From an uncultured Oscillospiraceae bacterium (GTDB lineage: Bacteria > Bacillota > Clostridia > Oscillospirales > Oscillospiraceae): 35,920 bases of DNA. The position numbers and the translations under genes are program-made. Shown one piece after another: positions 13,384 to 18,088 of this stretch. The stretch spans positions 1 through 35,920 of the forward strand of contig CALXFT010000020.1 in NCBI GenBank assembly GCA_944387635.1, written 5' to 3'. Below the pieces are notes generated by a model, which had not been told where the DNA came from, searched no databases, and saw only the letters and a program-made list of their open reading frames with translations. Position 1 is the stretch's first letter. Every line of letters starts with the position of its first letter.

Positions 13384-14310
13384 CTATTCCAGCAGCCCCA
13401 GGGCGGCGGTGACCAGGATGCCCAGATTGTCCCGGTAGATCTGGTCGAACTGGTCTATGGGCAGGGGGTTGACGCCGGAGCCGGCTTCGATGGTGTAGCC
13501 CGGACGGCGGAAATACTGGATGAACCAGTCCTTGTACCCGGCGAAGGAGGAGCTGTAGGCCGGGTCCGCCAGGGTGTAGCCGCTGAGCCGGGCAAATTCC
13601 TCCCCCAGCTCCCTGGCCCCCGGGACTTCATAGTCCTGGAACTGCCAGTAGATCTGCTGGCCCTGGGTGTGATAGGCCAGGATCAGGGTCGGGTCCACGC
13701 CCTCGGTGTAGCGGGCCAGGGCGATGGTCTCCCGCTGGTTCAGCGGCGCCCGGCCCACATAGTCCCGGGGGCCGGGCTGACGGTAGCCCTGGGAGAACTT
13801 GATTTCACGGGCCTGGAGCCAGGCGGCGGGGTATTGCAGATTCAGGTCCACACCCAGCAGGTTGGCCTTCCAGCCGTCTGGGAAGGGAATCTGGGGGTAG
13901 TTGTCGGCCATGGTCCGGGCAGCCTCGTATTCCAGCGTCCCGACCTCGATATCCCCCGTCACCAGATCCACCCCGTCGGGGTTCACCATGGGCACCAGGT
14001 GAATGGTGGCGGCGTTCAGAATATTCCGGGCCTCCACGCCGTAAAGCCGGTCCCGGCCGGCGAAGGCCTGAGCCAGGTCCTCGGCAAATTTCAGCAGCAA
14101 TGTGGCGGTGATCCACTCGTTGGCATGGTGGGCGGCGGTGTAGAGAACCTGCCGCTCCCCCTGGCCCAGGGTCATCACCTGAACCGGCCGGCCGTAGGCG
14201 GTGGTGGTCAGAATCTCCTCCGTCAGGAAGGGATAGCGGCCGGTCAGCCGCCGGATGGTCTCCCGGCACAGACTGCTGGTCATGGGTACGTCCGTTGGCA
14301 CCATAGACAA
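13384..14310 (-). CDS. M14-family zinc carboxypeptidase
   Basis: This 308-aa protein of the carboxypeptidase A fold has zinc ligands His62 and Glu65 in AAHHANEW, the third ligand in LAYHTQGQQIYW and the catalytic glutamate in YTIEAGSG. NPDGVDLV and DLNLQYP are also family segments. It resembles gamma-D-glutamyl-L-diamino acid endopeptidases, which cut peptidoglycan stem peptides, but has no LysM domain and no clear signal peptide, so a role inside the sporangium or on recycled muropeptides is an inference. The start is probably TTG 14310, eight bases behind GTGAGG; ATG 14304 is spaced too far. It is downstream of mgtE on the same strand, separated by a terminator. Confidence 0.88.
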   Translation of the reverse strand: MSMVPTDVPMTSSLCRETIRRLTGRYPFLTEEILTTTAYGRPVQVMTLGQGERQVLYTAAHHANEWITATLLLKFAEDLAQAFAGRDRLYGVEARNILNAATIHLVPMVNPDGVDLVTGDIEVGTLEYEAARTMADNYPQIPFPDGWKANLLGVDLNLQYPAAWLQAREIKFSQGYRQPGPRDYVGRAPLNQRETIALARYTEGVDPTLILAYHTQGQQIYWQFQDYEVPGARELGEEFARLSGYTLADPAYSSSFAGYKDWFIQYFRRPGYTIEAGSGVNPLPIDQFDQIYRDNLGILVTAALGLLE

Positions 14311-14434: not shown

Positions 14435-15814
14435 TTATAGTCCCAGAATGCTCTGGGCGAAGAGGAAGTAGGCCAGCAGGGACAGGGCGTCTACAATGGT
14501 GCTGATGAAGGGTCCGGCCATGACCGCCGGGTCCAGCTTCAGCGCTTTGGCCGCCATGGGCAGCAGACAGCCCACTGCCTTGGCCATGATAACGGTGACG
14601 CACAGGGCCACGCAGACCACCAGGTCCACCATGACCGTGATGTTCTCGTTGCCCAGAAGCGTCCTGTCCACGAGCCAGATTTTTACAAAGCAGGCCGCCG
14701 CCAGGGTCACGCCGCAGATCACCGCCGTGCGCAGCTCCTTCCACAGAACCGTCCCCAGATCCCGGAACTTCAGCTCCCCCAGGCTCAAAGCCCGGATCAC
14801 CGTCACCGAAGTCTGGGAGCCGGAGTTGCCGCCGGTGCCCATGAGCATGGGAATGTAGGAAGTCAGGGCCACCTGGGCCGCCAGGGCGTCCTCAAAGCTG
14901 GTGATGATCATGCCCGTAAAGGTGGCGGACACCATGAGCAGCATGAGCCAGGGAATCCGGTTCTTGAACAGGTCCAGAGGCGTGCTGCGCATGTAGGGCT
15001 TTTCCGAGGGCGTCATGCCGTGCATCAGCTCGATGTCCTCGGTGGTCTCCTCTTCCATGACGTCCATGGCGTCGTCGAAGGTGACGATGCCCACCATCCG
15101 GTGCTCCGTGTCCACCACGGGCAGGGCCAGGAAGTTGTATTTGCTGAACATCCGGGCCACTTCTTCCTGATCCGTCTGGGTGGTGACGTAGATCAGGTTG
15201 GTGAGCATGATGTCCTGGATCTGGACGTCGTCGTCCTCTGCCAGCAGCAGATCCCGGACGGACACCAGGCCCAGGAGGGTCCGGTCCTGGCCGGTGACGT
15301 AGCACAGGTAGATGGTCTCTTTGTCAATGCCCTGCCGGCGGATGCGGAGGATGGACTCGCCTACGGTCATGGTGGGCCGCAGGGAGACGTACTCCGTGGT
15401 CATGATGGACCCGGCGGAATTCTCCGGGTAGCGCAGGATCTGGTTGATGGAGCTGCGCAGCTCCGGGTCCGCGTGCTTTAAGATCCGCTTGACCACGTTG
15501 GCGGGCATCTCCTCGACGATGTCCGCCGCGTCGTCGGCGTAGAGCTCGTCCAGGACTTCCTTCAGTTCGTTATCGGAAAAACCCCGGATCAGCAGCTCCT
15601 GAGCCTCAGGCTCCATTTCCACGAAGGTCTCCGCCGCCAGCTCCTTGGGCAGCAGGCGGAACATCAGCGGAATCTGCTTTTCGTCCAGGTTGTCAAAAAG
15701 CCCTGCCAGATCGCTGGAATTCATAGTCACCAGAATATCCCGCAGGGTCGCGTACTTCTTCTCCTCCAGCATTTTCCGGAGGGCTTTTTCTACAAGAACA
15801 AAACGTTCAGCCAT
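14435..15814 (-). CDS. mgtE: Magnesium channel/transporter MgtE
   Basis: This 459-aa protein has the full MgtE layout. The N-terminal superhelical Mg2+-sensing domain (about 1-130) includes FDNLDEKQIPLMFRLL and ELYADDAADIVEEMP. A CBS pair follows (about 131-260: SIMTTEYVSLRPTMTV, DIMLTNLIYVTTQTD and FDDAMDVMEEE), then the plug helix and five membrane helices. The pore motifs PMLMGTGGNSGSQTS and KLDPAVMAGPFISTIVDAL are present; the last contains the ion-binding aspartate. In homologues cytoplasmic Mg2+ bound between the N and CBS domains closes the channel. ATG 15814 follows GGGAGG with six bases. It is transcribed from a perfect promoter through a 0.2-kb structured leader, suggesting extra control at the RNA level. 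Confidence 0.97.
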   Translation of the reverse strand: MAERFVLVEKALRKMLEEKKYATLRDILVTMNSSDLAGLFDNLDEKQIPLMFRLLPKELAAETFVEMEPEAQELLIRGFSDNELKEVLDELYADDAADIVEEMPANVVKRILKHADPELRSSINQILRYPENSAGSIMTTEYVSLRPTMTVGESILRIRRQGIDKETIYLCYVTGQDRTLLGLVSVRDLLLAEDDDVQIQDIMLTNLIYVTTQTDQEEVARMFSKYNFLALPVVDTEHRMVGIVTFDDAMDVMEEETTEDIELMHGMTPSEKPYMRSTPLDLFKNRIPWLMLLMVSATFTGMIITSFEDALAAQVALTSYIPMLMGTGGNSGSQTSVTVIRALSLGELKFRDLGTVLWKELRTAVICGVTLAAACFVKIWLVDRTLLGNENITVMVDLVVCVALCVTVIMAKAVGCLLPMAAKALKLDPAVMAGPFISTIVDALSLLAYFLFAQSILGL

Positions 15815-16024
15815 GATTTGCCTCCCTCAATATGATCCATTCCATTCTGAGGGCAATCCTACAGGGCCGAAGTGGTTTAAGCACCCACCGGGACGGCGGG
15901 GCCTGCGCTACTTCGACCGGGTATATTGCCATTGCCGCCAGCATCCATGGTGGGTCCTCCTCTTTTACAAATTTGGCCGGGACAGAAAGATGGGGCGGAC
16001 CCCGTTCCTGTTTTTCCCGAATTC
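15815..16024 (-). promoter_or_regulatory. Structured leader of mgtE, candidate cis-regulatory RNA
   Basis: About 210 nt lie between the predicted transcription start and mgtE. First comes a hairpin with stem segments CGGG, ACAG and GGGG/CCCC (about 15980-16019). A 23-codon ORF with its own ribosome binding site follows (15877-15948). Pairing A uses GGTCGAAGT (15918-15910) with ACTTCGGCC (15873-15865), and outside it GGCAAT (two copies, 15936-15931 and 15930-15925) with ATTGCC (15857-15852). Pairing B uses GATTGCCCTCA (15858-15848) with TGAGGGAGGCAAATC (15829-15815), which buries the mgtE ribosome binding site. A and B cannot coexist. It does not look like the M-box riboswitch usually found before Mg2+ transporter genes, whose conserved AGGTGAGGC and CCAATGGGTCA words I do not see. 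Confidence 0.55.
15877..15948 (-). CDS. Short upstream ORF in the mgtE leader (23 aa)
   Basis: ATG 15948 follows AGAGGAGG with seven bases. It opens 23 codons (MDAGGNGNIPGRSSAGPAVP plus three residues) ending in TAA. The peptide is small, Gly/Ala-rich, has three prolines and no recognisable domain, so it looks like a leader peptide rather than a working protein. Its codons contain the left arms of the structure that would free the mgtE ribosome binding site, and its stop lies only four bases before the right arm ACTTCGGCC. A translating or stalled ribosome would therefore decide which structure forms. Mg2+-responsive leader peptides with prolines (mgtL, mgtP) are known in enterobacteria; the analogy is an inference. 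Confidence 0.45.
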   Translation of the reverse strand: MDAGGNGNIPGRSSAGPAVPVGA

Positions 16025-16139: not shown

Positions 16140-16167
16140 TTGACAGCGAAGCGGGAGGGTGTAAAAT
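16140..16167 (+). promoter_or_regulatory. Promoter of the acetyltransferase gene
   Basis: TTGACA (16140-16145), 16-bp spacer, TAAAAT (16162-16167), 47 bp before the start codon at 16215. Confidence 0.6.
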
Positions 16168-16214
16168 GGAGGAAAGAGGCTCCGGCGCCCCGGAGAGAAA
16201 TGGAGGCGGCGTTT

Positions 16215-16796
16215 ATGATCCGTTTTGCCGAAGAAAGAGACCTTCCCCCCATGCTGGACATCTACAGCCCCTATGTCCGCCGGACCACGGTCAGCTTTGA
16301 GTACGACCCGCCGGACCTGGCGGAATTTACCGGCCGGTTCCGCGCCGTTACCGCCCAGTTTCCCTGGCTGGTGTGGGACGAGGGGGGACAGATCCTGGGC
16401 TACGCCTATGCCAGCGCCCCCTTCAGCCGGGCGGCCTACGCCTGGTGCGCCGAGCCGGCGGTGTATCTGCTGCCCCAGGCCCGCGGGCAGGGAATCGCCG
16501 CGGCGCTCTACGCCGCCCTGGAGGCGATTTTGAAGGCCCAGGGGTACCGGGTCCTCTACGCCCTGATCTGCGGGGAGAACGGCCCGTCCACGCGTTTTCA
16601 CGAAAAGGCGGGATACCGGATTCGGGCGGAGCTGCCCCGGTGCGGATTCAAATTCGGCCGGTGGCTTGACCTGGTCTGGATGGAAAAATGCCTCCCTTTT
16701 GGTGACAATCCCAGGGGTTTTCCGGTTCCATGGAGGGAGATTGTGCAAAATGACGAAAAGCGGATTGATATTTTAGACAACTTTTCCCTTTCCTAA
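16215..16796 (+). CDS. GNAT-family N-acetyltransferase
   Basis: This 193-aa protein resembles the phosphinothricin/MnaT acetyltransferase subfamily. It begins MIRFAEERDLPPMLDIYSPY, followed by VRRTTVSFEYDPPDL, the substrate loop typical of that group. Motif A, the acetyl-CoA pyrophosphate loop, is ARGQGIAAALY (about residues 92-102), and the C-terminal strand-helix ends NGPSTRFHEKAGYRI. Likely substrates are small amines or amino-acid analogues; the exact one cannot be told. ATG 16215 is eight bases behind GGAGG; the longer open frame upstream overlaps the mgtE leader and is not used. The last 25 residues extend beyond the usual domain end. A short TTTCCT/AGGAAA inverted repeat spans its stop codon. 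Confidence 0.88.
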   Translation: MIRFAEERDLPPMLDIYSPYVRRTTVSFEYDPPDLAEFTGRFRAVTAQFPWLVWDEGGQILGYAYASAPFSRAAYAWCAEPAVYLLPQARGQGIAAALYAALEAILKAQGYRVLYALICGENGPSTRFHEKAGYRIRAELPRCGFKFGRWLDLVWMEKCLPFGDNPRGFPVPWREIVQNDEKRIDILDNFSLS

Positions 16797-16897
16797 TTGA
16801 GGAAAATATGTTATTTTATCAATGTGGAAAATTGTGCCTCGACGCACCTGTTTTTCATTTACAGAGCGCCAATCAATATATGTAAGGAGCTGTGACT

Positions 16898-18088
16898 ATG
16901 TATTTTCAGAAAAAACGCGTAATCGCTATGCTGCTGGCCGGCGGCCAGGGCAGCCGTCTGAAGGTTTTGACGGAAAAGACCGCGAAACCCGCCGTGCCTT
17001 TTGGCGGCAAGTATCGCATCATCGACTTCCCTCTGTCCAACTGCGTCAATTCCGGTATTGACACCGTTGGCATTCTGACTCAGTACCAGCCTCTGGAGCT
17101 GAACGAGTATATCGGCAACGGCCAGCCCTGGGGCCTGAACAAAACCCACAGCTGCGCCCAGGTGCTGCCTCCCTACGAGCGTCACGACAAGAAGTCCGGC
17201 TGGTACAAAGGCACGGCCAATGCCATTTACCAGAACATCGACTTCGTGGACCGCTTTTACCCGGACTATGTGGTGATCCTCTCCGGCGATCATATCTACA
17301 AGATGGACTACGCCGCCATGGTCACCTACCACGAGCAGCACAACGCCTCTTGCACCATCGCCGTGCGCAACGTGCCTCTGGAGGAGGCCTCCCGCTTCGG
17401 CATCCTGAACACCAACCCCGACAACTCCATCTACGAGTTCGAGGAGAAGCCCGCCGTGCCCAAGTCCACCAACGCCTCCATGGGCATCTACTGCTTCAAC
17501 TGGAAGGTCCTGCGCGACGCCCTGATCGCCGACGAGGACGACCCCAATTCCTCCAACGACTTCGGTAAGAACATCATTCCCAAGCTCCTGAACGAGGGCC
17601 ACAAGATGATGGCCTATCCCTTCGACGGCTACTGGAAGGATGTGGGTACCATCGACTCCCTGTGGGAGGCCAACATGGAGCTGCTGGGCAAGGACCCCGC
17701 CTTCAACCTCCGCGGCGACGAGCGGTTTAAGATCTCCGCCCGGAACTCCGCCCTGCCCTCTTCCTACATCGACGAAAAGGCCAAGATCGTCAACGCCTTC
17801 GTGGCCGAGGGCTGCGAGGTCTACGGCAAGGTCAAGCACTCCGTCATCTCCGTGGGCTGCACCATCGGTGAAGACGCCTTGGTGGAGGACTCCGTGGTCA
17901 TGCCCGGCGTCGTCATCAAGGACGGCGCCATCGTCCGCAACGCCATCCTGGGTGAGAACTCTGTGGTGGGCAAGAACGCCGTGGTCGGCGGCGCCTTCGG
18001 CCCCGGCGACAAGAGAAAGATCAGCGTCACGTCCAAGGGCGCTGAGGTCAAGGACAGCACCGTGCTTCTGCCCGGTGACATGCTGTAA
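16898..18088 (+). CDS. glgC: Glucose-1-phosphate adenylyltransferase, catalytic subunit GlgC
   Basis: This 396-aa enzyme makes ADP-glucose from glucose 1-phosphate and ATP, the first committed step of glycogen synthesis. It carries the nucleotidyltransferase signature [20 protein letters not shown] followed by the allosteric/substrate segment [17 protein letters not shown]. The ATP-binding [11 protein letters not shown], metal-binding [11 protein letters not shown] and substrate lysine in YEFEEKP are all present. The C-terminal third is a left-handed beta helix of hexapeptide repeats (about residues 290-385). ATG 16898 follows AAGGAG. It heads glgC-glgD-glgA. No confident promoter was found in the AT-rich 100 bp upstream. 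Confidence 0.97.

Follow-up and report, generated by a model that had tools for sequence, protein, structure and literature searches.

The magnesium transporter gene mgtE in a 35,920-nucleotide stretch of DNA from an uncultured Oscillospiraceae bacterium (hereafter, the window) is preceded by a conserved short upstream open reading frame (uORF), whose RNA can cover the start of the uORF itself and can probably determine whether the transporter is produced. We consider it fairly likely that this leader works as a translational attenuator with a conserved leader peptide at its centre, in which full translation of the uORF would turn mgtE OFF and early pausing or abortion, as at low Mg2+, would turn it ON. 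It would be a case of a Mg2+ transporter attenuated by a leader peptide, here with a uORF that locks itself and a structured RNA that recurs across the family, in a leader-RNA class unmatched by the models of Rfam 15.

A first-pass annotation, made from the sequence alone, had described a perfect promoter, a 210-nt leader and a 23-codon ORF with a good ribosome binding site (RBS) ahead of mgtE, and had proposed a new cis-regulatory RNA. Comparison with relatives bore this out. The promoter pattern TTGACN-16/18-TANNNT was found in all 63 related leaders long enough upstream to show it, with 30–82 nt (median 33) between the -10 box and the uORF start; the leader length of 210 nt holds given a transcription start 7 nt past the -10 box. 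The uORF was recognised in 78 of 81 unique leaders, and the product of the downstream gene matches PF01769, PF03448 and CBS and has MgtE_N, CBS and MgtE domains. As in the annotation, which saw no M-box signature words, no M-box was found: a search with Rfam 15 gave no match at the gathering score in the window leader, and two sub-threshold matches at E ≤ 5 were both implausible, so an M-box or other known riboswitch was rejected as the identity of this leader. Across the window leader and the relatives' leaders searched, the uORF element was unmatched by any Rfam 15 family, with tRNA and M-box matches lying outside it. The single-sequence fold of the window leader was unremarkable (z -1.22; 22 of 200 shuffles equally good), and we therefore built the case on comparison. 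The surrounding genes are an M14 zinc carboxypeptidase-like gene behind mgtE (13384-14310, minus strand), a divergent GNAT acetyltransferase gene (16149-16796, plus strand) and a nucleotidyltransferase gene with GlgC-like features (16892-18088, plus strand).

Table 1 Features of the mgtE leader, in window positions
Feature	Position	Strand	Evidence or energy
Sigma-70-type promoter, TTGACA-17-TATAAT	16059-16031	(-)	12/12 consensus matches
Predicted mRNA leader	15815..16024	(-)	Start site inferred
Shine-Dalgarno (SD) of uORF, GAGGAGG	15956..15962	(-)	Conserved in leader alignments
uORF MDAGGNGNIPGRSSAGPAVPVGA + stop, 23 codons	15877..15948	(-)	Coding selection
Strand A: uORF SD/start region, start-lock side	15941..15960	(-)	Duplex with A' -24.6 kcal/mol
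Strand B: uORF codons 7-13 (TGGCAATATACCCGGTCGAAGTA), 5' side of P1 (anti-sequester)	15909..15931	(-)	-24.5 kcal/mol
Strand A': 3' part of uORF, antisense to own start region	15878..15896	(-)	Swap tests
Strand C (P1'): switch strand right after the uORF stop, forming the 3' side of P1	15851..15874	(-)	
Strand C extended: 5' side of P3 (mgtE RBS-sequestering hairpin)	15847..15879	(-)	-23.1 kcal/mol
Strand D: 3' side of P3, spanning the mgtE SD, start codon and codons 2-5	15801..15830	(-)	Swap tests
mgtE SD, GGGAGG	15821..15826	(-)	Read from sequence
mgtE, magnesium transporter, 459 aa	14435..15814	(-)	TIGR00400 451.6 bits, cut-off 232.75

To survey the element in close relatives, we read mgtE leaders across the genus, where mgtE was present in 55 of 61 genomes and the element stood ahead of it in 46 of the 49 leaders read. 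When species genomes were scanned for the core pattern, 55 contigs came up. Their labels were Oscillospiraceae, Clostridia, Clostridiales, Eubacteriales, Bacillota or uncultured bacterium, and two carried the name Candidatus Faecousia; core conservation in these contigs is by construction, because they were chosen by the exact core pattern. mgtE lay just downstream in 53 of them; in the remaining two the locus stops 92 and 170 nt past the start of the core match. The resulting pool of 102 leaders (49 + 53) contained 81 unique sequences, 78 with the element, and 65 after removal of near-copies. Three of the 49 genus leaders (L008, L011 and L044) have a promoter directly before mgtE without the uORF element, as natural 'switch-less' forms, and gave no Rfam match in the stretch fetched.

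Coding selection on the uORF is well supported by comparison of its start, frame and stop. The leader recognisers assumed in-frame starts and accepted ATG, GTG and TTG only; the frame claim rests on frame-free tests. A frame-free pattern located both marks in 43 of the 49 genus leaders, and in all 43 the start-to-core distance was 33, 27 or 36 nt, a multiple of 3. The same rule was kept at 59 of 64 other loci (both marks were found in 64 of 75); among the five that broke it, at least two (L119, L160) were in frame by a second recogniser, and L162 and L199 do not resemble the element. Start codons in the 78 uORFs were ATG (73), GTG (3) and TTG (2). The first in-frame stop fell at core +18 to +48 in 97% of 65 leaders, compared with 19% of 58 leaders with a stop in the frame +1 control, and in frame +2 a stop was met at about core +5. 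A purely non-coding RNA was ruled out by this selection on frame, start and stop, and comparative evidence indicates that the Mg2+ transporter gene is preceded by a short ORF that is translated. Another uORF in a different frame (15944-15807, 45 aa) was also rejected, since its ATG is absent from many relatives and variable third letters fall where frame 0 would place them.

Within the genus the peptide reads M-[DE]-x-G-[SG]-[SN]-G-N-I-P-G-R-S-[SR], followed by a variable tail, and the family form is about M-D-A-G-S-S-x-G-T-x-x-G-R-S. Codon 2 is D or E in 57 of 59 genus uORFs, with the same letters also constrained by pairing at the start. The first-pass annotation had suggested stalling at prolines as the signal, which as a general signal did not survive the comparison: the window peptide has prolines at codons 10, 17 and 20, of which the latter two fall in the variable part and codon 10 alone is kept (P in 55 of 59 aligned uORFs). 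Three codons were nearly fixed among the 59 uORFs (CGA 58, AGT 58, ATA 54), in a set for which core conservation is partly by construction, some leaders having been selected by the core pattern. That these codons hardly vary shows an RNA-level constraint acting besides coding.

We looked for pairings that co-vary between species. RNAalifold on a MAFFT alignment of the leaders returned no pairs, probably because partners were thrown out of line by gaps in the P2 region and, in the RBS hairpin, by shifts of register; we therefore used alignment-free partner swapping, in which the duplex energy of a leader's own strands is compared with that of partners exchanged between species, together with reversed-partner controls. 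The statistics leave kinship among the leaders in place. By this measure three pairings are well supported: the uORF start region with the 3' part of the uORF (start lock), uORF codons 7-13 with strand C (P1), and strand C with the mgtE SD. The P2 region, which is the uORF's 3' part, paired better with its own start region (-14.8 kcal/mol, against -12.3 for swapped partners; z -9.3, 0 of 500 permutations), and the best window for it outside the start region reached z -2.1. A scan of 843 window pairs across genus-level leaders, with z values that are rough because they come from 24 permutations, gave P2 -9.9, the start lock -8.3, the mgtE RBS hairpin -7.4, and P1 -6.0 and -5.3; where strand C met the SD/start region of mgtE, the values were -6.7 to -4.7. 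Reversed partners fell below -4 in 4 of the 843 pairs, against 25 real pairs; the lowest control (-6.0) lay in the GC-rich P2 region, and the P2 value is thus partly a matter of composition. In 38 non-redundant leaders from other genera, the start lock was the strongest pairing (z -6.1), followed by P2 (-5.6) and P1 (-4.6), with reversed partners below -4 in 2 of 1,056 pairs (lowest -4.2) against 19 real ones. In three of these 38 leaders (L126, L134, L152) the own start-lock duplex was no better than the average swapped one.

The two alternative helices had been seen in the first-pass annotation: ATTGCC at 15857-15852 was proposed to pair either with GGCAAT inside the uORF (15930-15925) or around GGCAAAT at the mgtE RBS. 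Both partners hold up, at -24.5 and -23.1 kcal/mol, and both helices co-vary between species in the swap tests. The start lock had been overlooked (15960-15941 with 15896-15878), and as isolated duplexes all three are nearly balanced in the window, at -24.6 for the start lock. P1 and P3 share strand C and hence compete, so that co-varying alternative structures lie on one strand; P3 would do the blocking. Swap support along strand D was strongest at the SD and spacer. As an example of strand C pairing, L084 has GUGUUUGCCUCAUUU with AAAUGAGGAGGAAACAC. The start lock commonly takes the form of a start region CACCAUGGAC with a loop GUCCGUGGUG, as judged by eye, and compensated examples, also by eye, include L036 (UCGCUGUGG with CCACGGCGG) and L046 (CAUCAU with GUGAUG). 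Its letters vary by genus, as in L120 (AACGATGGACGC with GGCGTCCGTCGTG). By eye, three leaders (L020, L073, L077) have, between uORF stop and mgtE, a ~140-nt palindromic MITE-like insert at the loop of the RBS hairpin, both arms of which are kept, and L035, L045 and L115 have long inserts between uORF and mgtE, L115 seemingly repeating the RBS region.

These crossing pairings could also be read as a ligand-binding riboswitch, for Mg2+ or another ligand, in which a pseudoknot of P1, P2 and the start lock with the near-invariant CGAAGUAG forms an aptamer overlapped by the uORF. The near-invariance of CGA, AGT and ATA where synonymous codons would do (in leaders partly selected by their core) fits an aptamer, as do loop letters that recur, by eye, in different reading frames. 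However, the constancy of CGAAGU needs no ligand, since it is paired with a co-varying ACUUCG (z -5.3 in the 843-pair scan), and L021 and L124 have CAAAGU paired with ACUUUG; the loop letters are accounted for by pairing with the uORF start; and the start, frame and stop are themselves under selection. We regard an aptamer as unlikely.

We favour instead the attenuator. Strand C would make the mgtE start region easier to open when paired with uORF codons 7-13 (P1, ON), and would close that region by pairing with it and with the SD (P3, OFF). A ribosome finishing the uORF would cover the 5' side of P1 and free strand C, allowing P3 to form and shutting mgtE; a ribosome pausing or dropping off in the first codons would leave P1 free to form, and mgtE would be made. 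The 3' part of the reading frame, complementary to the uORF's SD and start, would lock the uORF once ribosomes stop moving, and the start lock may thereby limit further initiation. This agrees with the direction proposed in the first-pass annotation, that complete uORF translation favours the RBS hairpin. In support, the mean cost of opening the mgtE start region was 5.25 kcal/mol with P1 formed and 14.4 kcal/mol when a ribosome covered codons 6-16, a gap that is partly built in because the model assumes that P1 occupies (masks) strand C; P1 made the region cheaper to open in 61 of 62 leaders. The SD of mgtE was mostly paired in every state of a nested-only ensemble computed for 61 leaders (unpaired 0.22 when free versus 0.19 with a ribosome at codon 12), and since this accessibility hardly changes, we left it out as support for direction. 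The direction of control that the opening costs suggest is one in which uORF translation would repress mgtE.

Ordinary translational coupling would predict the opposite sign, with the uORF recruiting ribosomes or keeping the RNA open and mgtE rising with uORF translation. It would fit the strong SD and the position of the uORF stop, 15-90 nt from the mgtE start in most of the genus leaders listed. However, coupling leaves unexplained both the sharing of strand C by P1 and P3 and the antisense to the uORF's own start, and masked uORF codons make the mgtE start region costlier to open, not cheaper; we consider it very improbable. A variant of the attenuator is a more serious possibility, although one that we hold only tentatively. 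Here the start lock and P1 would be mutually exclusive, ribosome-free RNA would be OFF, and an initiating or aborting ribosome alone would turn mgtE ON, similar to the logic of MgtQ, for which a start-codon mutant lowers mgtB (PMC8092293). In the nested-only model, masking the uORF start raised mean P1 occupancy from 0.30 to 0.52, and in the window leader from 0.02 to 0.73. Against this, the nested model is unable to form a pseudoknot, so that exclusivity is an assumption, and by eye the loop lengths appear sufficient for both pairings. Whether ribosome-free RNA is ON or OFF thus depends on whether the start lock and P1 can coexist.

For the attenuator, the most likely signal is intracellular Mg2+. 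As with MgtL and MgtQ of enterobacteria, it would act through how stable the ribosome is on the acidic N-terminal part of the peptide; ribosome abortion would then be the sensor. In MgtL and MgtQ, ribosomes are lost because of acidic codons at positions 2 and 4 or 5, which raises the Mg2+ transporter (PMC11282234, PMC8092293). The element may work like this class by analogy, with membership unproven because the window peptide keeps only D2, without D4/P5. MgtQ (Salmonella mgtC-mgtB) is alike in its short ORF with Asp2, its alternative stem-loops, and translation of a Mg2+ transporter governed by hiding or freeing an RBS, since it works through RBS sequestration (PMC8092293). It differs in having 8 codons and in lying between genes within an operon of a Gram-negative organism, and the available portion of that report mentions no antisense of its own start; we set it apart by this description (PMC8092293). 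MgtL and CorL (mgtA and corA of E. coli and Salmonella) are alike in that uORF translation is inverse to the Mg2+ transporter, and MgtL (EPDP) has acidic and proline codons near its start, as do some of the class-level relatives described below (M-D-x-D-P); they act via Rho-dependent transcription termination, whereas here the RBS is the likely target (PMC11282234, PMC11552253). Unlike MgtL, the window peptide has no second acidic residue.

Other structured leaders of Mg2+ transporters are less similar. The 'mgtE motif' SRC-65-1 is likewise a structured RNA ahead of mgtE with the SD inside a stem; it is described as exclusive to Thioalkalivibrio and as a riboswitch candidate, and the available portion of its description mentions no uORF (PMC11109978). 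We therefore rejected it as the identity of our element, on the grounds of this description and the different organism group. The M-box (RF00380) shares the setting of Mg2+-transporter leaders and is absent from the window leader. The mycobacterial tandem of an M-box and a conserved uORF resembles an M-box-then-uORF order that occurs in relatives of the window; its uORF2 peptide is described as mycobacteria-specific, of unclear role, with a start controlled by the M-box platform (PMC12810186). In the open-access literature searched, we found no similar element and no uORF carrying the antisense of its own start, the searches not being aimed at this wiring by name.

To determine how widely the element occurs, we searched with R1, a sequence model of its RBS-to-core part, which has one match in the window's own genome. 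At E ≤ 0.01, R1 matched in 76 of 300 family genomes and 36 of 106 genera, the weak end including chance matches, and mgtE lay downstream at all of the 30 best R1 loci (five of them in the own genus). The recogniser accepted 43 of 65 family loci. Sixteen with an mgtE match failed it, several of which show a uORF with another core, and six had no mgtE match, two of these with other likely Mg2+-transporter genes and four apparently chance matches. In the order, R1 matched 14 of 245 genomes at E ≤ 0.001, with mgtE at 8 of 10 order loci from other families. On these sequence comparisons, the element is associated with Mg2+-transporter genes. It was broader than the first-pass annotation had claimed: a further conserved pairing lies over the start of the uORF itself, and some relatives have an M-box directly upstream of the uORF. 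The annotation's leader, uORF and competing helices stand; its proline signal does not.

M-box riboswitches in Clostridia are described as stand-alone switches. No M-box exceeded the gathering score in the window or in those genus loci (4 + 8) that were searched over their full length. Among family genomes, 55 of 300 had M-boxes, at 60 places, and at 12 of these the M-box was followed on its own strand, after 45-160 nt, by an R1 match (G098, G119, G122, G156, G199, G215, G223, G241, G256, G275, G338, G351; those in G122, G241, G215 and G275 rest on weak R1 matches, E 0.001-0.009). The gene behind the tandem, read at 11 of the 12 places (G215 left out), was mgtE at nine, a CorA-like gene at one (G122, behind a uORF MDGDPGSSGN..) and a P-type ATPase at one (G241, behind MDAGSSNGINPDGRSRN..), for which the best family was the Mg2+-translocating type, in a partial protein and below cut-off.

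At class level, outside the own order, we read 70 of 73 M-box places, of which 44 had an SD-preceded short ORF ahead of the next long ORF and 26 had none. Codon 2 of these 44 uORFs was D or E in 23, codon 4 was D in 10 and codon 5 was P in 14, with starts such as MDTDPDTN, MDCDPDSN and MDSGPLPN. An earlier count of D/E at codon 2 was 22 of 42, compared with 0 of 10 in antisense controls and about 1.3 of 19 in shuffles; over both strands of 30 class loci, D/E stood at codon 2 in 15 of 71 SD-ATG short ORFs, M-box uORFs included. In a test of 35 non-redundant class uORFs, about five of which seem to lie inside the transporter gene, the uORFs paired with their own SD/start (z -7.7; reversed control -4.1). 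Because this pairing centres on the SD and spacer, with windows beginning at the start codon at z 0.0 to -1.7, pairing probably does not fully account for an acidic codon 2.

The same device in family relatives, and a similar uORF beside the M-box in distant ones, suggest ribosome-based gauging of Mg2+. On a broader reading, to which we would give slightly less than an even chance, Clostridia would use two Mg2+ sensors in series, an M-box acting on transcription and then a self-locking leader peptide acting on translation of mgtE, corA or mgtA-like genes, with the mgtE leader of the window's genus having the ribosome-based sensor alone. The peptides in question have the form M-D-x-[D/G]-P or M-D-A-G-S-S-x-G, with a coding sequence ending in the antisense of its start. 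If the ribosome-based reading is true, MgtL/MgtQ-like Mg2+ sensing is no enterobacterial speciality and the M-boxes of Clostridia are often paired with a second, translational sensor; if the two-sensor reading is true, sensing of this type, so far described in enterobacteria, reaches Gram-positives with a new self-locking wiring. The leader-RNA class is in any case shared by many genera within a family of gut bacteria and linked to mgtE there, and the reading of its uORF as self-locking yields sharp, testable predictions.

Short acidic uORFs (M-D-x-[D/G]-P and similar) were seen behind many Clostridia M-boxes (L176-L195, L206-L275), followed by mgtE or other likely Mg2+-transporter genes. The window's own genome has a second mgtE (contig C21), 50% identical, whose leader (L050) has an M-box at 137-308 (94.3 bits), then a hairpin that looks terminator-like by eye and, from ~393, an SD-preceded acidic ORF, MDTDSGNG, that overruns the gene start.
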